DNA of 32,814 nucleotides from a virus. The notes below the pieces were generated by a model. It was given only the letters and a program-made list of their open reading frames with translations. It was not told the DNA's origin and made no database searches. Every line of letters starts with the position of its first letter. Positions within the stretch are counted from its first letter, which is position 1. Of the stretch, positions 7,687 through 32,814 are shown piece after piece. The stretch spans positions 1 through 32,814 of IMG/VR virus record IMGVR_UViG_3300044609_000606. One strand, written 5' to 3'. The position numbers were made by a program, and so were the translations under genes.

Positions 7687-7899
7687 ATGTTAACTAAATT
7701 AAAATTAACGGAAAGTGAAATAAGAGATATCTTAAGTAAACATGGTGTAAAATCTAATGTTATATCTGAGCAAACTCAAAATTATACAACTTTGGATATA
7801 CAGAATTGGTTAAATTCTAATAAAAAGGCAGGATTAGATCCTGATGGTAAAATAGGACCTTTAACTCTTAAGGCCATAAAAAACGCTTTAATGGGGTAA
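7687..7899 (+). CDS. Short peptidoglycan-binding-domain protein with virion-type N-terminus
   Basis: A 70-residue protein. The first half (KLTESEIRDILSKHG, then NVISEQ) resembles the N-terminus of other proteins in this window that I take to be virion components; ISE fits the (I/L)xE rule of T4-type prohead proteases. The second half (LDIQNWLNSNKKAGLDP, DGKIGPLTLKAI) is a short PG_binding_1-like module, with the DGxxGPxT turn typical of the family. It precedes the 667-residue gene by three bases. Probably a small cell-wall-binding virion protein; no enzymatic domain is present. Confidence 0.65.
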   Translation: MLTKLKLTESEIRDILSKHGVKSNVISEQTQNYTTLDIQNWLNSNKKAGLDPDGKIGPLTLKAIKNALMG

Positions 7900-10212: not shown

Positions 10213-10614
10213 ATGGAAAAAATATTATATATTGTTAGAGGTGTACCTGGTTCGGGTAAATCTACATTTGCAAAATCATTAGGTGGGACTCATTTTGAGA
10301 CCGACACATTTTTTATGGAGAATGGTGAATATAAATTTGATTTTACCAAATTGAAAGAAGCTCATAAATGGTGTCAGGATGGTGTTAATACTGCGATGAT
10401 TATGAATCACACTGCAAACATTAATAATGTGATTGTGGTATCCAATACGTTCACACAGGAGTGGGAAATGGAACCATACTTTCAGATGGCAAGTACTTTT
10501 GATTACAAAGTATTTTCAATAATTGTTGAGAACAGACATGGTGGTGTTAATCAACACGGAGTTCCTGAAGATAAGATCCAAATAATGAAAGATAGATTTG
10601 AAGTGAAGTTATGA
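10213..10614 (+). CDS. P-loop kinase, polynucleotide-kinase/N4BP2-like
   Basis: A 133-residue P-loop protein. Walker A is GVPGSGKS (residues 10-17); ETDTFFMENGEYKFDFTKLKEAH and VVSNTFTQEWEMEPY match the small AAA_33/N4BP2L-type kinases, where the Asp after the first strand pair and the N-T-F segment act in phosphate transfer. The shape is like the kinase part of T4 polynucleotide kinase, but the phosphatase half is absent. With the metallophosphoesterase at 11504 and RNA ligase at 14831 it could form a nucleic-acid end-healing set. It overlaps the next gene by four bases. Confidence 0.8.
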   Translation: MEKILYIVRGVPGSGKSTFAKSLGGTHFETDTFFMENGEYKFDFTKLKEAHKWCQDGVNTAMIMNHTANINNVIVVSNTFTQEWEMEPYFQMASTFDYKVFSIIVENRHGGVNQHGVPEDKIQIMKDRFEVKL

Positions 10615-11483
10615 GTAGATTAGATAAATTAAAAGAACAACATCCTGAATTAAACATTACCCTTATAGATCTTATTGGTATGATAGATCCTACCGATACA
10701 TATAAATATTCAGAGTTCCTAATCAAAATTTTGAAAAATTGGTATGTTAATACGGATATACGATATGGGATTGGAATTGATTTGTTTGGTGAAGAACAGG
10801 TTGAATCTTTAAATGAATTTGAAAGACATTGTAAGGCAAAAAGAGTTGAAAAAAATGATATTAGTCAACACACTGACTTTAGAAGTTTAAAGGTTGAAGT
10901 TGAAAAGGCTAAAGAAATACTCAGATTAAAGGAGTTGGAAAAACAAACCAAAAAATTATTTGATAATGATGAGTGGTTAGTTATAATTCCTTTAAGTTAT
11001 GAGGCGTCAAAACTGTACGGTATGGAAACAAAGTGGTGTACAACTCAGGAACGTTATTGGAATGATTATATTAGAAAATATAAACTAATTTATGTCATCA
11101 ATAAAATAACAAATAACAAGTACGCCATATCTAGAGATAAAACGGAAGATAAAGATTTAAAGGCTTGGTTATCTGATGATACTGAAACTAGTCCTTTATT
11201 GTTACCAATACCTCAAGACTTATGGTCCGTGATAATGCCTGAATTACAAAAACAAGAATCTGTTACCGATTTAATTGGTGGGGATTTAACTGGAATCATC
11301 AACCTAACTTCAGGAAGTTCCGATAGTATTGTTGATAGAGTTAGAAGATTGATGGACATTATAGATAGACCAGTTAGTGAACCATATAGAACACAGACAA
11401 CACATTACCCAAATAATTTAAGTAATTACGTTGATTACGATAGTTATATAAGACAATTAAGGGTTGAGGATAACGATTATTAA
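10611..11483 (+). CDS. WCT-motif phage protein, copy 1
   Basis: A 290-residue protein, a paralogue of the one at 16468. Shared parts are the N-terminal NITLIDLIGMIDPTDTYKYS block (copy 2: NISLIDLMGNLDTSDTKKYT) and a central LSYEASKLYGMETKWCT (copy 2: LTYEASVSYGYQTRWCT), followed by a strand with YVINKITNNKYAIS. The TxWCT motif with surrounding strands occurs in phage proteins I know only as uncharacterised. A Lys/Glu-rich helix lies at about 100-125, and the C-terminus is Ser/Thr-rich and probably disordered. It is translationally coupled (ATGA) to the P-loop kinase. Function unknown. Confidence 0.7.
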   Translation: MSRLDKLKEQHPELNITLIDLIGMIDPTDTYKYSEFLIKILKNWYVNTDIRYGIGIDLFGEEQVESLNEFERHCKAKRVEKNDISQHTDFRSLKVEVEKAKEILRLKELEKQTKKLFDNDEWLVIIPLSYEASKLYGMETKWCTTQERYWNDYIRKYKLIYVINKITNNKYAISRDKTEDKDLKAWLSDDTETSPLLLPIPQDLWSVIMPELQKQESVTDLIGGDLTGIINLTSGSSDSIVDRVRRLMDIIDRPVSEPYRTQTTHYPNNLSNYVDYDSYIRQLRVEDNDY

Positions 11484-16467: not shown

Positions 16468-17487
16468 ATGGGAATAAAGAAAATTAAAAAAGAAAACGAC
16501 ACAATTAACATTAGTTTAATTGATTTAATGGGTAATTTAGATACTAGCGACACTAAAAAGTATACTCAATTCTTGGTTAAAGTCCTTAAAAAAAATTACG
16601 ATGAGGATATTAAATACATGATAAAAGATGATCCAAGTAGTAGAAGAAAAATTGATGAGATTTTAGGTGATGATAGTTTTAATAGTTGGTTAACAAAAAG
16701 ATTGATTAGTCAATTATATGGGTGGGATGAAATGAATTTATTTGTTGATTTTTGCGACTACATGGAAAGAGGATTAATTAATGAAAAAGACATTAGTAAA
16801 TACGATAGTTGGGACATGGTTGCAAGTGAAGTATATCAAGCTAAGAACCGTGATTTATTTAAAAAAGCAAAAAAAGAAGTTAAAGTTGTTTATGAGGATG
16901 ATCAATATACTTGTATTAAACCGTTAACATATGAGGCATCGGTATCATATGGTTATCAAACTAGATGGTGTACCGCTTCAGTTCAGGAACCTAGTTACTT
17001 TTATAATCACTCAAGAGATGGTGTACTTGTATACTTAATTGATAAAATTAATAATGTAAAATTTGGATTTTACCACGATCAAAATCAAATTCAAATTTAC
17101 AACCAAAAAGACAACAGAGTGGATTCAATGGAAACGGATCTTCCGTTAGAATTATTACATAAGTTGGTTAGTGAAATGAAATCTGATGCTAAAGACAAAA
17201 ATTTTAACTACAAGTTATTTAGTGAAAGTGAATTGGAAAAAATGAGAAAATATAGACGTGATGACCATTATCCAGAAATAGGTCCAATGAATGAAATGTT
17301 AACGGAAGGACCAATGGGATTAACAGGAGGACATGGGCCAATTGGAGAAATGATGGTGGAGGAACCTACAAATGAAGATATAATGATACATACGGGTCTT
17401 CGTAATGATATTATAGAAGATATGAGAGAAAGAGTTCACAGATTTAGACCTGTAAATCCAATTGAGATTGGTGATGAATTACCATAA
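16468..17487 (+). CDS. WCT-motif phage protein, copy 2
   Basis: A 339-residue paralogue of the protein at 10611, sharing the N-terminal NISLIDLMGNLDTSDTKKYT block and the YGYQTRWCT motif at about residue 161-169, with flanking PLTYEAS and VYLIDKINNVKFGFY strands. It is longer: an insertion before the motif, and a C-terminal tail rich in Met/Gly/Glu (GPMNEMLTEGPMGLTGG, then a similar GPIGEMMVEEP). LTE within that tail could be a protease site, but this is speculative. Function unknown. The two copies lie 5 kb apart, each in a different transcription unit. Confidence 0.7.
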   Translation: MGIKKIKKENDTINISLIDLMGNLDTSDTKKYTQFLVKVLKKNYDEDIKYMIKDDPSSRRKIDEILGDDSFNSWLTKRLISQLYGWDEMNLFVDFCDYMERGLINEKDISKYDSWDMVASEVYQAKNRDLFKKAKKEVKVVYEDDQYTCIKPLTYEASVSYGYQTRWCTASVQEPSYFYNHSRDGVLVYLIDKINNVKFGFYHDQNQIQIYNQKDNRVDSMETDLPLELLHKLVSEMKSDAKDKNFNYKLFSESELEKMRKYRRDDHYPEIGPMNEMLTEGPMGLTGGHGPIGEMMVEEPTNEDIMIHTGLRNDIIEDMRERVHRFRPVNPIEIGDELP

Positions 17488-19813: not shown

Positions 19814-21376
19814 ATGAAAAAAATTTACGCAAGTATTGTAATGTTAATGTTTGTTTTCTTAACAAACGCACAAAGTCAGTTTTGGACTGTTACTGACTAC
19901 AAGGGGGCTTTTCCTGTGACCGATAATACACCACAGACAGATTGGACTTATGGGTGGTCTAACTTTGATCCTGAGAATACAAATTACCCGGCAACACAAA
20001 CAACAATAAGTTCTGATATCACAACAAACACAACCTTATCTGGTGTAGTCTTATTACAGAATAAGATATATGTGAAAAATGGTGCAACACTTACAATCCA
20101 ACCCGGAACAATAATTAGAGGTGACTATTCAACACAAGGAACTTTAATTGTTACGAGAGGATGTAAATTAATTGCTGAAGGAACACAACAATTACCAATC
20201 GTATTCACTTCAAATAATTCAGTTGGAAATAGATCTGAAGGTGATTGGGGTGGAGTTGTTATTTTAGGTAACGGAGTTAATAACCAACCTGGTGGTGTTG
20301 CAAATATTGAAGGTATTGTACCAACACCTGATACTGAATTTGGTGGAAGTAATGATATGGATAATTCAGGTTCATTAAAATATGTAAGAATTGAATTTGG
20401 TGGTATTCCTTTATCACCTAATAAAGAAATTAATGGTATTACTTTTGGTTCGGTTGGATCAGGAACACAAGTAGATTATATCCAGGTTAGTTATTCGGGT
20501 GATGATTCATTTGAATGGTTTGGAGGAACGGTTAACTGTAAACATTTAATATCATATTCAACAACTGATGATGATTTTGATACTGACTTTGGTTATAGAG
20601 GTAATGTTCAGTTTGGGTTATCAATTCGAAATGAAAATTTGTCAGACGCCGCAGGTGACTCAAATTGTTTCGAATCTGACAATGACGCACAAGGTAGTGT
20701 GGCTTTACCACAAACTGCACCTATTTTTTCTAACTTCACACTTGTTGGGGCTAAAGGTGATGGTAACGTTGTTTTACCTATGGGTGAAAAATTTGAGAAA
20801 GCATTTAGAATTAGAAGAAACTCAGCGGTTTCAGTATTTAACACTCTTGTTGTTGGATGGGAAAAAGGTTTATCGTTAGAAGGAACGTCAGTTGAGGATA
20901 ACGTATTAGGAGATACACTATCTTTCAATAGTAATGTACTTTGTGAAATACCAACAAATTGTTTGGTTACAACACCAGGGTTTTTAAACGCATATTTTTC
21001 AAATAACAATAACGATTCATTAACAACAATTAATCAAATTAATTGGGTTAATATTTTTGTCCCTAATGGGGTAACTCCTGATTGTAGATTAGATAGTACA
21101 TCGGTTGTTGCGACAGGTGCGGACTTTACAAATGATAAATTCGGTGATTTAACTAATAGTATTAGTGAAACAATCAAAACATCGTTTAAAGTATTCCCTA
21201 ACCCAACAGAAGGTTTAATCAGTATTGATTCTGATAAAAAATCTTTAAATTTTGTAATCTACAATTCATTGGGTAAAGTTGTAAAACAAAACAATACAGA
21301 CTTATCGGATTTGGAAAATGGTATTTATATCATCAATGCTGATGGTCATACGGAAAAAGTTATAGTTAAAAAATAA
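19814..21376 (+). CDS. T9SS-sorted beta-helix surface protein
   Basis: A 520-residue exported protein. A signal peptide ends near residue 19 (FVFLTNA-QSQ). The main part resembles a secreted right-handed parallel beta-helix family found throughout Bacteroidetes: NGATLTIQPGTIIRGD, GDWGGVVILGNG, SLKYVRIEFGG, GDDSFEWFGGTVNCKHLI, DDDFDTDFGYRGNVQFG. The last 63 residues (from FKVFPNPTEG) form a type-A T9SS C-terminal sorting domain (YPNP-like motif, then LENGIYII...KVIVKK). It should therefore be exported across the outer membrane by the host's type IX system and attached to the surface. It is followed five bases later by a TonB-dependent receptor, its usual partner type. Ligand unknown. Confidence 0.9.
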   Translation: MKKIYASIVMLMFVFLTNAQSQFWTVTDYKGAFPVTDNTPQTDWTYGWSNFDPENTNYPATQTTISSDITTNTTLSGVVLLQNKIYVKNGATLTIQPGTIIRGDYSTQGTLIVTRGCKLIAEGTQQLPIVFTSNNSVGNRSEGDWGGVVILGNGVNNQPGGVANIEGIVPTPDTEFGGSNDMDNSGSLKYVRIEFGGIPLSPNKEINGITFGSVGSGTQVDYIQVSYSGDDSFEWFGGTVNCKHLISYSTTDDDFDTDFGYRGNVQFGLSIRNENLSDAAGDSNCFESDNDAQGSVALPQTAPIFSNFTLVGAKGDGNVVLPMGEKFEKAFRIRRNSAVSVFNTLVVGWEKGLSLEGTSVEDNVLGDTLSFNSNVLCEIPTNCLVTTPGFLNAYFSNNNNDSLTTINQINWVNIFVPNGVTPDCRLDSTSVVATGADFTNDKFGDLTNSISETIKTSFKVFPNPTEGLISIDSDKKSLNFVIYNSLGKVVKQNNTDLSDLENGIYIINADGHTEKVIVKK

Positions 21377-21381
21377 TAGGA

Positions 21382-23943
21382 ATGAAATTTTTATTGACGT
21401 TATTATTGGTACTACCAATACAATTATTAGCTCAACCATCTGAGACATTTAAAAAAGACTCAGTTAGAAATGTTGAGGGGGTTACAGTTACCTTTAAAAT
21501 TAATAAAGAATCAACAACAGAACTTGTAAAACTACAAAGAAATAGTGTTACATCTGTAGACGGAATTAACGCAGAGACCTTTAAGAGAACACCAGACTCT
21601 AAGGTCTCTGATGTTTTTAAACGTGTAAGTGGGATAAGTGTTGTGGATAATAAGTTCGTGGTTGTGAGGGGTCTTAATGATAGATATAACTTCGCATTAT
21701 TGAACGGACTACCTTTACCAAGTTCGGAATCAGATAAGAGATCTTTTTCATTTGATATATTCCCATCAAACATGATTGATAATCTAATGGTAATGAAGAC
21801 TGCTAGCCCTGATTTACCTGGTGAGTTTGCCGGTGGTATAATTGATATCAATACTTCCGAACCTAAAAATGAAAATACTCATACAATACAGATTGGTGGA
21901 TCACATAATACAATTGCAACATTTAGGAATTTTAAAACATATGATGTTGAATCTAGAGGGTTACCAAATATTAACGGAACTATTGATTTCCAAAACTTAT
22001 CAAAACAAGAAAGGTCTGAGGTTGCAAAACTAATGGATTTTACTTGGTCAACTAAAGATAGACTTGCGTTACCTAACCCATCTATTCAATATACATTAAG
22101 TAGAAACATTAAATTAAAAAAGAAACAAACGTTAAGTTTCATTTTAACATATAACTACCAAAACAACTTCAACTATAATAATATTGTTAGAAGAGAGTTT
22201 GAGGAACAAGCGACAGGTGTGGTTAAGAAAATGGAACTAAATGATTCTGTCTTTACTCAGAGTGTTTTGAATAGTGGTATGTTAAATTTGGTTTATAAGA
22301 TTAATGAAAACAACACCATCAAGTTTAAGAACATTTATTCCGTAAATTCTGAAGATAAGGTTAACGTTAGAAATGGTGTAAGAGAATTGGATAGTGATCC
22401 AAGACAATGGGAAAAGTCTACAAATTTTTGGTATACTCAAAATAACTTTTTAACTAATCAATTACTTGGGATCCACACGATAAAAGAAAATAAATTTAAT
22501 TGGAGTGTTGGTTATAGTAATGTTAAAAGAGACATACCAAACCTAAGGAGAGTAGTTTATAGAAAATACTCTTTAAATGAGGATGATCCAACAGAACAAT
22601 ATGTTGCCGTGGTTCAACAGAATGGTACCATACCAACGGCAGCCGGTAATATGTTTTGGTCCGAATCAGATGAAAAAATTATAAGCGCTAGATATGATCT
22701 AACAATTCCATTTAAAGAGGTTAATTCAATTAAAATCGGTGGATGGAATCAATTTAGAATGAAAGACTTTCAATCAAGAAACTTTGGGTTTTCACAATAT
22801 AAACCAAACGGTAGTACCTTTAATAGTAACTTACTTTTATTACCTATGGATCAAATATTTTCTATTGAGAATATGGGTCTTTTGAGTAATGGTCAGGGTG
22901 GTTTTAAATTAGATGAAGCAACCAAAGTGGATGATAGTTATAATGCGAATTCATTATTAAACTCTTTCTACACTATGGTTGATTACAAATTAGATAAGTG
23001 GAGATTTACGGGTGGAGTTAGATTAGAATCTTACAATCAAAACTTTAACTACATTGAATTTGGGAGTAACCTAAATAGAAACATTGATACCACTGTGATT
23101 GATTTATTACCTTCGGTTAATATAATTTATAACTTCAATAAAAAAATGAAGTTAAGAGGAAGTATTAGTCAAACGGTATCAAGACCTGAGTTTAGGGAGT
23201 TGGCTCCATTTAACTTCTATAACTTTATATTAGATAATATTACATCAGGTAATCCATACTTAAAAAGAACTAAGATAACTAATTGTGATATTAGATATGA
23301 AGTTTATCCTGGTAGTGGTCAGATTATAAGTTTGTCAGGATTTTACAAAAACTTTGATAATCCTATTGAAACTATAAATAGGACTGGAACATCAGGAGCA
23401 CCTGAGTTATACTTTTCAAACATAGATAGATCACAAAGTTTTGGTGGTGAGTTAGAATTTAGATTTAAATTAGGGTTTTTATCTAAAGTTGAAAATCATA
23501 AGTTATGGGATCAACTTACACTTTATAGTAATGTATCTTTAATAAAATCTGTGGTTAACATGGATGAGGTTATAGGTGCGGGGGGTAACAGACCATTACA
23601 AGGTCAATCACCATACATCATTAATTCAGGGTTATTTTACACGAATAAAAAAGAAGATTTTAATATGACATTATCATATAATGTTATTGGACCTAGAATA
23701 TATATTGTTGGTAATCAACAAGAACCTAGTGTTTGGGAAAACGGTAGAAATGTTATTGACCTCCAACTATCAAAAACTTATAAAAAGTTTGAATTAAAAT
23801 TAAACATAAAAGATATATTAGCACAAAAACTTATATACTTTCAAGACCTAAATGGTAATCAAAAATATGACACAGAAGATAATAGGTGGCAAGAGATTAC
23901 TTTTGGTCAAACGGTTTCACTATCGGTTAGATATAAGTTTTAA
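21382..23943 (+). CDS. TonB-dependent outer-membrane receptor
   Basis: An 853-residue receptor with a signal peptide (about 1-17, LLTLLLVLPIQLLA), a plug domain (about 30-160: SVTSVDGINAETFKR, VVRGLNDRYNFALLNGLPLP, DIFPSNMIDNLMVMKT, GEFAGGIIDINT) and a long beta-barrel ending with the expected aromatic residue (SLSVRYKF). Homologues in Bacteroidetes as I know them usually have an additional N-terminal carboxypeptidase-regulatory-like domain of about 90 residues before the plug; it is absent here. It forms a two-gene operon with the T9SS protein. It could take up a nutrient, or change the surface to block other phages. It is an unusual cargo for a phage genome. Confidence 0.92.
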   Translation: MKFLLTLLLVLPIQLLAQPSETFKKDSVRNVEGVTVTFKINKESTTELVKLQRNSVTSVDGINAETFKRTPDSKVSDVFKRVSGISVVDNKFVVVRGLNDRYNFALLNGLPLPSSESDKRSFSFDIFPSNMIDNLMVMKTASPDLPGEFAGGIIDINTSEPKNENTHTIQIGGSHNTIATFRNFKTYDVESRGLPNINGTIDFQNLSKQERSEVAKLMDFTWSTKDRLALPNPSIQYTLSRNIKLKKKQTLSFILTYNYQNNFNYNNIVRREFEEQATGVVKKMELNDSVFTQSVLNSGMLNLVYKINENNTIKFKNIYSVNSEDKVNVRNGVRELDSDPRQWEKSTNFWYTQNNFLTNQLLGIHTIKENKFNWSVGYSNVKRDIPNLRRVVYRKYSLNEDDPTEQYVAVVQQNGTIPTAAGNMFWSESDEKIISARYDLTIPFKEVNSIKIGGWNQFRMKDFQSRNFGFSQYKPNGSTFNSNLLLLPMDQIFSIENMGLLSNGQGGFKLDEATKVDDSYNANSLLNSFYTMVDYKLDKWRFTGGVRLESYNQNFNYIEFGSNLNRNIDTTVIDLLPSVNIIYNFNKKMKLRGSISQTVSRPEFRELAPFNFYNFILDNITSGNPYLKRTKITNCDIRYEVYPGSGQIISLSGFYKNFDNPIETINRTGTSGAPELYFSNIDRSQSFGGELEFRFKLGFLSKVENHKLWDQLTLYSNVSLIKSVVNMDEVIGAGGNRPLQGQSPYIINSGLFYTNKKEDFNMTLSYNVIGPRIYIVGNQQEPSVWENGRNVIDLQLSKTYKKFELKLNIKDILAQKLIYFQDLNGNQKYDTEDNRWQEITFGQTVSLSVRYKF

Positions 23944-27378: not shown

Positions 27379-27600
27379 ATGTTTAAAGTAGAAAGGTTAG
27401 GAACATGGGGAGTCATCATACTAACAATGATTTATTTGATAGTTATAAACACATTTTTTGAATATGTTATAAACAGAGAAATAAATTCAGTAATCCAAAT
27501 CGTGGCGGTATTAGTAGCTTTAGCTTACACGGTTTTCACATTAAAGCTAATAATTAATTTAGTTTATAATATTATAAAAAAAGAAGAAGAAAATGATTAG
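27379..27600 (+). CDS. Two-helix membrane protein (73 aa)
   Basis: A 73-residue protein with two hydrophobic segments (about 10-28, WGVIILTMIYLIVINTFF, and 38-62, VIQIVAVLVALAYTVFTLKLI) and an acidic tail KKEEEND. It overlaps the SPFH gene by eight bases, suggesting the products are made together and may interact in the membrane. No family. Confidence 0.7.
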   Translation: MFKVERLGTWGVIILTMIYLIVINTFFEYVINREINSVIQIVAVLVALAYTVFTLKLIINLVYNIIKKEEEND

Positions 27601-28546
27601 TACATTAATTTTTATTACAGGTTTAATTGCGGCAATCCTCATTGCATTAAAAACACGAGGAACTATGTTTAAAGTTGAAGCAGACCGATGGGGAGACAAC
27701 AGAGAAACATTTCAAACAAGTTGGTTAATCAAACCTATCGGGGTTTTTGTGTTCAGTTTAATTTTATCAATGATCCAACCATTTGCCCTTGAGAAAGTGG
27801 ATAGTGGGTACAAAGGATTAAAAGTTAGTTTGGTTGGATCTCAACGTGGGGTAACAAACTACCAGTACAAAACAGGATGGGTGGTTTATAATACTTGGAC
27901 AGAACAAATGTTAGAGTTTCCTACGTTCCAACAACACATTGAGTATGATGACCAACAAGTAATTACAAAAGGTGGATTCCCAGCAACTATTAAACCAACA
28001 TTTAACTACTCTTTGAAAGAGGCAAATATTGGAGATATGTTCGTGAATTTACGATTGGATGTAAAACAAGTTGAACAAGGATGGTTGAAAAACGCGATCA
28101 TCGGAGCCGTGAATGACGTGGCTAACACTTGGGAAGTTGATAGTATCTTTGGACACAGACAAGCATTTGAAGCATCAATCGTTGCTGAGTGTAATGTGAG
28201 GTTATCTAAATGGTTTAACGTATCACAATTACGTACCAACATCACACCACCTGAAGCGTTACAGGAATCTATTATTGCTAAAACAAAGGCGATCCAACAA
28301 GCTGAGGCTTCTGAACAACAAGCGTTAACTGCAATTGCTGAAGGTAAACGTAAAGTTGCGGTGGCTCGAGCTGACTCTGCGGAAATGATCATTAATGCTT
28401 ATGCTGCGGCACAAGCAATCAAGATTAAACAAAATCAGATTACTCCAATGTATATTGAGTATTTGAAAGCACAGGCTTGGGATGGGAAATTACCAACAAC
28501 AATGGCAGGTAGTAGTGGAATGTTTTTGAACTTAAATAAAAACTAA
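27593..28546 (+). CDS. SPFH/band 7 (prohibitin-like) membrane protein
   Basis: A 317-residue SPFH-type protein. There is an N-terminal membrane segment (about 3-19) and a second one (about 47-63), then a band-7 domain from about 68 (VDSGYKGLKVSLVGSQRG, a typical prohibitin start) to about 215, and an Ala/Glu/Gln-rich coiled coil (about 225-290: KAIQQAEASEQQALTAIAEG, then RADSAEMIINAYAAAQAIK). Such proteins form large membrane rings and scaffolds. Phage SPFH proteins are known from large genomes, with uncertain roles. It may organise the membrane proteins made from the same operon. Confidence 0.85.
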   Translation: MISTLIFITGLIAAILIALKTRGTMFKVEADRWGDNRETFQTSWLIKPIGVFVFSLILSMIQPFALEKVDSGYKGLKVSLVGSQRGVTNYQYKTGWVVYNTWTEQMLEFPTFQQHIEYDDQQVITKGGFPATIKPTFNYSLKEANIGDMFVNLRLDVKQVEQGWLKNAIIGAVNDVANTWEVDSIFGHRQAFEASIVAECNVRLSKWFNVSQLRTNITPPEALQESIIAKTKAIQQAEASEQQALTAIAEGKRKVAVARADSAEMIINAYAAAQAIKIKQNQITPMYIEYLKAQAWDGKLPTTMAGSSGMFLNLNKN

Positions 28547-31267: not shown

Positions 31268-31876
31268 ATGATTGATAACATAGAACAAATAAAAGGATTA
31301 CTTAACTTTGAAAACAAAGGTGACTTTTATATGCTTTACGTTTTTAAACGAAAGAAGGACCAACCTGAAGGGGAAAGAGATAATCACCAGTCAGTTAGAA
31401 CAATTAAATCATATTGTATTGAATCCATTGAACACTTGGATCGTAGGTATGATGAGATTAAACAACTTTGTGAGATGTTTAAGGCTCGTGCTTATATCCA
31501 CGTTCAAAAACAAAATCATACGGACGTGTCATTGAATATGATGGTTGATCTTGCTAAAAGAATACAAGACGGTAATCATAAACAAAAAGGTTTATTTGAT
31601 TCTGTTGTGGGACAAGTTAAAACACAAGAGAAACGTTGGATTGTTGATATCGATACGACCGACTATCATGCGGTTACTGAAGTGACACAATTTATAAACT
31701 ATCTCAGACCTGAAGGGCCAAAAGTTGAAATGGTAATACCAACTAAGAATGGGTATCATTTAATAACAGGTAGATTTGATGTTAAAACATTTAGTGAAAA
31801 ACATCCGGACATTGACATTCAAAAGAAGAACCCAACATTATTGTATTACCCAAAAAGTTTAGATGATGAATTATAA
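31268..31876 (+). CDS. Phage protein with primase-like motifs (weak)
   Basis: A 202-residue protein. RWIVDIDT (about 119-126) and PTKNGYHLITGRFD (about 153-166) resemble the DxD and (S/T)xxGxH motifs of archaeo-eukaryotic primase/PrimPol proteins in order and spacing; a third acidic motif is not clear. The N-terminal part includes ARAYIHVQKQNHTDVSLNMM and an HKQKGLFDSVVGQ stretch that looks conserved but has no name that I know. Small for a full primase. It could be a nucleotidyltransferase relative or unrelated. Its end overlaps the start of the repeat gene by 14 bases. Confidence 0.6.
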   Translation: MIDNIEQIKGLLNFENKGDFYMLYVFKRKKDQPEGERDNHQSVRTIKSYCIESIEHLDRRYDEIKQLCEMFKARAYIHVQKQNHTDVSLNMMVDLAKRIQDGNHKQKGLFDSVVGQVKTQEKRWIVDIDTTDYHAVTEVTQFINYLRPEGPKVEMVIPTKNGYHLITGRFDVKTFSEKHPDIDIQKKNPTLLYYPKSLDDEL

Positions 31877-32814
31877 AGAATTAAAAAGAAAAGAATTTTT
31901 ATTTGAGATTATTGATGATGTCATCGATGGTATGGATGTTTATAATCATAATGGATCTCTTTGGTTAATTAAAACTGAAGAATTAAAATGGGCAATTGAA
32001 TTTACCAAAGATAAAATATTGTGGTATAACTACAATTTATTTAAAAATTTATTTAAGGCAATTTCTTTAGATATTTCGGAAAATCAAAAATATGTAACTG
32101 AATGGTTTGAATCAAGATTTTTGAATAAACCAAAGGTGTGGGCCACTTTTAATCACGCAATTGATAGCAACCAAGCCGTTGAAGACACCATCCAAAATGG
32201 GGTGAAACACACCCAAGGGGATCAACAACCATTTCATATTGACGTTGAAGATACCATTGAAAATGGGGTGAGAGATATTTCCCCAATGACACAATATGCT
32301 GATTGGCAAGTTGAAGAAATAATTCAAAATGGTGTGAAGGAAACTTTAAGTACTGCGGGAAAACCATTGAGGGTTGAAGACACCATTCAAAATGGGGTAA
32401 AAGAGACTATTAGTACACTACGGCGTACTGCTAAGTGGGGTGTTGATGACATTATTCAAAATGGGGTGAAGGAAATCAGATCAAATAAAGGATTGATAAC
32501 TTCCTACAGACAAAATCACAAGGCCAAAAAAACTATTGAAAATGGGGTGAAGGACACCAAACCAATGGATGAGTGGGTAAATGCTGAAAGTATTATTGAA
32601 AACACAATAGAGTATGGTGTAAAAGAAACCTGTGAAGATGTGTATCACCATAAAGGTAGAATCGGTGGTGTGATTAAAAATGGAGTTAAAGAAGTCCAAC
32701 CATTACCAGCACAAGATGGTAATAGAGATTGGGGTAACTATTATTTCGGAAAGCAAGATAGAACAAAACCTTTTAATGATTATCTTAATGACGCAATTAA
32801 ATACGGTAAAAAAA
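31863..32814 (+). CDS. Motif/spacer repeat protein, 3' end beyond window
   Basis: Open from the ATG pair at 31863/31866 to the window end (317 codons, no stop). Residues 1-95 form a Trp/aromatic-rich domain (SLWLIKTEELKWAIEFTKDK, then ILWYNYNLFKNLFK, ENQKYVTEWFESRF). Then a short motif close to VEDTIQNGVKET recurs eight times from about residue 106 to 278, every 21-26 residues, while the sequences between copies share no similarity. A degenerate end copy (DAIKYGKK) closes the window. Starting 14 bases inside the preceding gene suggests coupled translation. Function unknown; I recall similar EDTIQNGVK motifs from uncultured-phage proteins, without a function. Confidence 0.8.
   Translation, partial: MMNYKELKRKEFLFEIIDDVIDGMDVYNHNGSLWLIKTEELKWAIEFTKDKILWYNYNLFKNLFKAISLDISENQKYVTEWFESRFLNKPKVWATFNHAIDSNQAVEDTIQNGVKHTQGDQQPFHIDVEDTIENGVRDISPMTQYADWQVEEIIQNGVKETLSTAGKPLRVEDTIQNGVKETISTLRRTAKWGVDDIIQNGVKEIRSNKGLITSYRQNHKAKKTIENGVKDTKPMDEWVNAESIIENTIEYGVKETCEDVYHHKGRIGGVIKNGVKEVQPLPAQDGNRDWGNYYFGKQDRTKPFNDYLNDAIKYGKK
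32178..32696 (+). repeat. Eight coding copies of a 33-48-base motif with variable spacers
   Basis: Copies begin at about 32178, 32244, 32310, 32373, 32442, 32526, 32586 and 32664. The core is near ATTCAAAATGGGGTGAAGGA, often preceded by GTTGAAGACACC. The same codons (AAT GGG GTG) recur in most copies, so the duplication is recent or actively kept alike, while spacers of about 9-16 codons are unrelated. All intervals are multiples of three. The seventh copy carries a four-codon insertion (NTIEYG in place of NG). Confidence 0.85.

Follow-up and report, generated by a model that had tools for sequence, protein, structure and literature searches.

The array gene and its parts

The window analysed here is the whole 32,814-nt stretch of IMG/VR virus record IMGVR_UViG_3300044609_000606 (positions 1 to 32,814). 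Near its end lies a gene that joins a conserved domain to a tandem array of repeats and spacers. The ORF starts at 31863 and is still open at the window end (32814). The same array is present identically in four other loci (L002-L004 and L007), from which the remainder of the gene was obtained. The complete protein has 318 aa, and the window therefore lacks only the last two residues and the stop codon. The features are listed below.

31268..31876, + strand: upstream gene, phrog_14949 (unknown function), overlapping the start of the array gene
31863..32814, + strand: array gene, N-domain plus eight motif units, truncated by the window end (318 aa in L002)
31863..32135, + strand: conserved N-terminal alpha/beta domain, about 90 aa (AlphaFold2 pLDDT about 95; alignment A1)
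32136..32177, + strand: segment VWATFNHAIDSNQA preceding repeat 1, which occurs in L122 and L087 too
32178..32213, + strand: repeat 1, VEDTIQNGVKHT
32214..32243, + strand: spacer QGDQQPFHID, 30 nt, in 7 array ORFs
32244..32279, + strand: repeat 2, VEDTIENGVRDI
32280..32309, + strand: spacer SPMTQYADWQ, 30 nt, in 10 array ORFs
32310..32345, + strand: repeat 3, VEEIIQNGVKET
32346..32372, + strand: spacer LSTAGKPLR, 27 nt, in 7 array ORFs
32373..32408, + strand: repeat 4, VEDTIQNGVKET
32409..32441, + strand: spacer ISTLRRTAKWG, 33 nt, an old cassette, widely shared
32442..32477, + strand: repeat 5, VDDIIQNGVKEI
32478..32522, + strand: spacer RSNKGLITSYRQNHK, 45 nt, in close relatives only
32523..32558, + strand: repeat 6, degenerate, AKKTIENGVKDT
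32559..32594, + strand: spacer KPMDEWVNAESI, 36 nt, in 7 array ORFs
32595..32630, + strand: repeat 7, degenerate, IENTIEYGVKET
32631..32660, + strand: spacer CEDVYHHKGR, 30 nt, in 17 array ORFs
32661..32696, + strand: repeat 8, degenerate, IGGVIKNGVKEV
32697..32783, + strand: long, old cassette QPLPAQDGNRDWGNYYFGKQDRTKPFNDY, found in 18 array ORFs and followed by the C-terminal tail LNDAIKYGKK

The initial annotation had described eight copies of a motif of about 12 residues, alike even at the DNA level. The eight VEDTIQNGVK(H/E)T-like copies are indeed found, starting at 32178, 32244, 32310, 32373, 32442, 32523, 32595, and 32661, and seven of them are 69-100% identical to the reference copy over 35 nt. 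The spacers, which it had called unrelated in sequence, have no similarity to one another within the array, but they are not private to this gene: most were found reshuffled in 4 to 18 array ORFs, other N-domain clades included. The exception is RSNKGLITSYRQNHK, whose other occurrences are confined to three close relatives, L002, L005, and L006. With degenerate repeats and mostly recurring spacers, the array of the window looks old and quiet.

The aromatic N-terminal domain was also correctly set apart in that annotation, and its fold is predicted with confidence; the predicted order of its elements is helix, four strands, two helices. AlphaFold2 gave no confident structure for the array (pLDDT about 30-45). 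A PDB fold search with the N-domain returned nothing significant, matches in BFVD were solely to uncharacterised proteins of uncultured Caudovirales, and no convincing match was obtained in Pfam, NCBIfam, or PADLOC. Scores to dodecin and ZorA arise from the repeats and are below the cut-off or partial. The helical solenoid of known function that had been considered as a contrary outcome was not found, either as a confident array model or as a convincing profile or PDB match.

Several other features of the window were noted. Positions 19814-23943 encode a secreted protein with an apparent type IX secretion sorting tail followed by an apparent TonB-dependent receptor (judged by eye), which in a viral record would be host DNA or else unusual phage cargo. 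A similar N-terminal segment, e.g., MK(I/L)ILTENQYKxLxE, opens many small proteins (at 7687, 7903, 12184, and 18522, and in many ORFs of related loci) and resembles a common targeting or propeptide tag. The record also encodes an SPFH/Band 7 membrane protein (phrog_200, 27593-28546) and a paralogous pair at 10611-11483 and 16468-17487, both phrog_17056 (unknown function).

Distribution of the family

About 100 related array genes are present in IMG/VR, in a family of uncultured large tailed phages, and they share one plan: a conserved α/β domain of ~90 aa, followed by units made of a 36-nt repeat and a 30-nt spacer. Relatives are plentiful in IMG/VR; the initial annotation had proposed a motif search in metaviromes. 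The full-protein search of IMG/VR gave 40 loci, the repeat pattern at least 119 stretches, and the N-domain 169 relatives. Neither the repeat pattern (degenerate pattern scan) nor the N-domain was detected in 84,980 GTDB species genomes, and no family match was found among 50,697 named phages. A T4-type Gp23 major capsid protein is encoded in three of the larger records, among them contigs of 233 and 281 kb. One 24-unit array is identical across about twenty contigs from many metagenomes and, together with the four other loci that carry the window array, makes an assembly artefact unlikely as the origin of the arrays.

Array genes often occur in tandem pairs within a genome (L148, L117, L138, L149, L087, L067, L092, L122, and L233). 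N-domain paralogs without arrays were also seen (L054, near 4152; L182, 1333-1728), and the likeness of their tails to the old cassette YSDKIPHEYDW suggests common ancestry of old cassettes and stand-alone proteins. The upstream phrog_14949 gene accompanies arrays in 8 of the 27 N-domain clades and is therefore no general partner of the arrays. Among the neighbours, no gene conserved across most clades, as a candidate integrase would be, was found.

The array is translated and its peptides are selected

All 1,463 repeat-to-repeat spacings are multiples of 3, none being off-frame. Among 501 distinct 30-nt spacers no in-frame stop was found, compared with 45% of random 30-mers of like composition, and the remaining frames of the same spacers contain stops in 34-63%. 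These 501 spacers were taken from ORFs; a DNA-level repeat scan, which is independent of ORFs, detected a stop inside the unit at 8 of 1,636 repeat hits, most of them resembling natural gene ends. The pN/pS of shared spacers was 0.26-0.32 (first estimate 0.35), against 0.89 in a neutral simulation with the same filter. By this measure, the amino acids of shared spacers are under purifying selection. Conservation of spacers between relatives, which the initial annotation had named as evidence against its reading, is seen in part: spacers are shared and their amino acids preserved, but their order is shuffled.

These results bear on whether the locus is an ordinary non-coding CRISPR array that is open in one frame by chance, 36 + 30 being a multiple of 3. 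Its geometry and repeat copying (see below) would fit, but stops are absent from all 501 spacers, spacings are never off-frame, the array is fused to a conserved N-domain and selected for its amino acids, the repeat is absent from Rfam, and Cas1 is absent from the records searched. We consider this explanation very improbable.

Turnover of whole units and exchange of cassettes

In strains with 99-100% identical N-domains, 66-nt units have been gained, lost, or replaced, and the kept spacers are usually unchanged. Across 27 close pairs, which overlap so that unit counts are non-independent, 215 units are present in one member only, and shared spacers differ by 0.7% of nucleotides. The phrase "modular protein built by adding spacers" in the initial annotation is strongly supported and can be taken literally, since it is entire 66-nt units that come, go, and pass between arrays, and the comparison of spacer content between related phages that it advised reveals units shared, shuffled, and turned over whole.

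Because units change whole and kept spacers are near-static, hypermutation is excluded as the main process. Tandem duplication followed by spacer hypermutation, e.g., by a diversity-generating retroelement, would account for constant repeats adjoining hypervariable segments. Yet kept spacers are identical or nearly so between strains while their neighbours are wholly different, and no reverse transcriptase was found in 21 records; of all the alternatives we find this one the hardest to credit.

Unit differences by array fifth numbered 56, 40, 49, 28, and 42, a weak N-terminal excess in non-independent pairs. Strain differences thus lie all along the array, indicating that exchange and loss are also frequent. 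Between ORFs whose N-domains are 36-64% identical, 19 DNA-identical spacers were found, and the identity mostly stops inside the flanking repeats, which indicates that single cassettes travel between arrays. Particular cassettes were found in up to 27 ORFs.

Geometry, polarity, and probable growth of the arrays

Unique spacers flanked by repeats at most 1 nt apart are exactly 30 nt long in 57 of 57 cases, and those between decayed repeats range from 21 to 198 nt. From the N to the C side, mismatches to the repeat consensus climb from 4.4 to 9.0, and the distance between neighbouring repeats grows with array position (rho 0.35, p 4e-15). The N-terminal ends of four arrays are filled by repeat variants private to the array: VENVIQNGVINT in L233, VEDTIQNGVKNT in L126, VEDTIQNGVKYT in L104, and VEDTIQNGVRHT in L128. 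The L233 contig carries two tandem array genes with N-domains about 91% identical and a common private repeat (10 listed copies). N-terminal to a common spacer, IAHGL(I/M)SANT, that differs by 1 nt between the two arrays, one gene holds 4 new spacers and the other 5, with none in common. We infer from these patterns that growth is probably polarised and accompanied by copying of the end repeat.

A competing account dispenses with de novo capture: arrays would trade cassettes from a huge pool held by related phages through homologous recombination in the repeats, and spacers would seem new because other arrays are unsampled. Consistent with this, single cassettes do pass between distant arrays, strain differences are spread along the whole array, and the majority of the window spacers are shared. 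Young units in L233, L126, L104, and L128, however, are flanked on both sides by array-private repeats, which would not be expected of imports; the youngest spacers are flat in codon phase with a GC of 0.44, unlike older spacers (next section); and the cassette pool itself would still need an origin. Exchange without capture is in our view unlikely, though it is the most serious of the competing explanations.

Composition of new spacers and its change with age

The youngest spacers have a GC content of 0.436 in contigs of about 0.32, and stop-free six-frame windows of the same contigs are at about.33. Their GC1, GC2, and GC3 values of.469,.405, and.433 carry no codon-phase signal. They have a natural, roughly strand-symmetric dinucleotide bias (TA 0.66; CA/TG 1.15/1.21), which argues against untemplated synthesis. 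In base composition the youngest spacers are foreign, and they are random in phase.

Along the gradient of repeat decay, GC3 drops from.433 through.340 and.324 to.256, close to the 0.243 of phage coding sequence; GC1 and GC2 are stable. The relation of GC3 to repeat decay (rho -0.31, p 6e-12) was matched by 0 of 1000 within-array permutations. Over the same gradient the spacers become less hydrophobic (content from 0.34 to 0.25) and richer in acidic residues (from 0.09 to 0.16). The drop of GC3 at steady GC1 and GC2 suggests that captured DNA is retained as peptide while its synonymous sites ameliorate.

If instead the spacers were inert filler, with many motif helices being needed and unrelated linkers serving only to block recombination between repeats, one might expect the nearly position-independent composition of young spacers and the lack of a predicted fold in the array. 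This is improbable, as shared spacers have a pN/pS of about 0.3 rather than the neutral 0.89, GC3 declines with age whereas GC1 and GC2 show no relaxation, and particular cassettes recur as widely as noted above.

The repeat as constrained DNA

Across the family, the repeat uses codons that are rare in the background (ACC, 87% vs 16%; GGG, 74% vs 13%; GTG, 64% vs 13%), and the same, partly rare, codons are kept across clades. In 35 distinct amplified repeat variants, the synonymous bases T3, C12, T15, A18, T21, and G24 are conserved at 91-100%, and bases 9, 27, and 30 are variable. Such constraint on the repeat DNA would be explained if an integrating enzyme recognised the repeat, or if recombination required sequence identity. 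An RNA hairpin in the repeat scored no better than shuffles, and Rfam contains no family matching the repeat. The consensus includes the inverted repeat CCATT-CAA-AATGG, which is broken in the visibly amplified L233 repeat and is therefore dispensable.

Searches for a spacer source, an enzyme, and a precedent

In the first run, protospacers in flanking and same-lineage phage DNA did not exceed shuffled controls. The strong matches of a second run, where inspected, were unmasked array copies, e.g., in L233. No spacer source was found in 3.1 Mb of related phage DNA, nor in named phages, plasmids, or E. coli. Exact 20-mers of five young spacers, searched against 2.9 million IMG/VR viral contigs, hit their own arrays only. 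At the peptide level, the only candidate source in non-array ORFs was the cassette-like tail YPDYLPxxYDW of the small N-domain paralogs (L054 and L182).

Cas1 was not detected in 21 virus records of up to 281 kb; parts of the genomes may be missing from these records, and the enzyme could also be supplied by the host. Reverse transcriptase (PF00078) was absent from 21 records and tyrosine integrase (PF00589) from 20, many of the records being fragmentary. We know of no described system with the properties reported here. The open PMC library yielded no description of one; tandem repeats and hypervariable proteins go unmentioned in a paper (PMC12619734) on large aquatic phages with Bacteroidota as their predicted hosts.

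Proposed mechanism and meaning

We favour, as the probable explanation, an array that codes for protein, grows in the manner of a CRISPR array, and keeps its cassettes as a heritable repertoire of peptides. The geometry, frame selection, unit turnover, private repeats, foreign new spacers, purifying selection, and lateral sharing on which we base it can all be read in the sequences; the growth of the array and insertion by an integrase with a 30-nt ruler are what we infer from them. The initial annotation was partly right: its view of a protein built by adding spacers is strongly supported, but it understated the case, having overlooked the CRISPR-like geometry, the foreign and random-phase new spacers, and the family-wide distribution.

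In the mechanism we propose, an enzyme with a 30-nt ruler would place captured DNA at the N-domain-proximal repeat. The 36-nt repeat would be duplicated and a stretch of unrelated DNA, exactly 30 nt long and whatever its phase, would come to lie between the two copies, so that each insertion would add 22 codons and keep the frame. Inserts with stops or frameshifts would be purged, because the older peptides downstream must stay translated. New units would later diverge, vanish, or move singly between arrays via recombination in the repeats. Helpful peptides would persist and spread between phages, their codons drifting toward phage usage and their lengths drifting while the amino acids are preserved. 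In this scheme the N-domain would be the constant module and the cassettes a selected repertoire of putative short binding peptides, e.g., against host or competitor proteins; the likeliest role of the whole would be that of a multi-specific binding protein against such targets. The decoy, scaffold, and processed-polyprotein roles suggested in the initial annotation would be further candidates. We are less confident, though still leaning in favour, of the fuller statement that a putative integrase takes up foreign DNA in 30-nt pieces into a translated array and that the peptides are then selected, inherited, and traded between phages.

If true, the arrays would be a nursery for de novo peptides. 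They would hold a dated series of peptides from captured DNA, from newborns of foreign composition to conserved old cassettes, by which the birth of new protein sequence becomes directly measurable. They would further point to an undescribed integrase that bears a ruler, and to peptides traded as a repertoire among phages.

Comparison with known systems

CRISPR arrays with Cas1-Cas2 adaptation include a class with 36-nt repeats and 30-nt spacers. Like the phage array, they have near-identical repeats and unique spacers of fixed length (30 nt in all 57 of the youngest here) that are foreign in composition; they also copy the local repeat, grow at one end, and carry degenerate repeats at the other, features that the phage sequences suggest as well. 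Unlike them, the phage array is translated within one protein and selected as protein, it has no Cas1 (in the records searched), Rfam repeat family, or protospacer match (in the collections searched), and its spacers also pass laterally, one cassette at a time.

Diversity-generating retroelements share with the phage array a phage-borne protein diversity beside constant sequence, but the array is without a reverse transcriptase (21 records), and its kept spacers are unmutated and its units swapped whole. In integron gene cassettes and shufflons, modules are likewise gained, lost, and exchanged at repeated sites; the phage units, in contrast, measure 66 nt within one ORF, come with no tyrosine integrase in the 20 records searched, and bring unrelated sequence when new rather than existing genes. 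In TPR, ankyrin, leucine-rich, and TALE proteins, too, each of the tandem units combines a constant with a variable part. The phage array differs from them in having no convincing profile match or predicted solenoid, and its variable part is wholly unrelated between units rather than altered by a few substitutions.

Rickettsia palindromic elements and other in-frame mobile insertions bring short DNA into protein genes and yield new peptides. Those insertions are copies of one mobile element, whereas in the phage array the repeat is constant and the insert new each time. Outside non-coding CRISPR arrays, no case in which spacers are captured and the repeat is copied is known to us. If our reading is true, the phage arrays would be a second kind of genetic recorder, CRISPR-style, whose output is a polyspecific protein.
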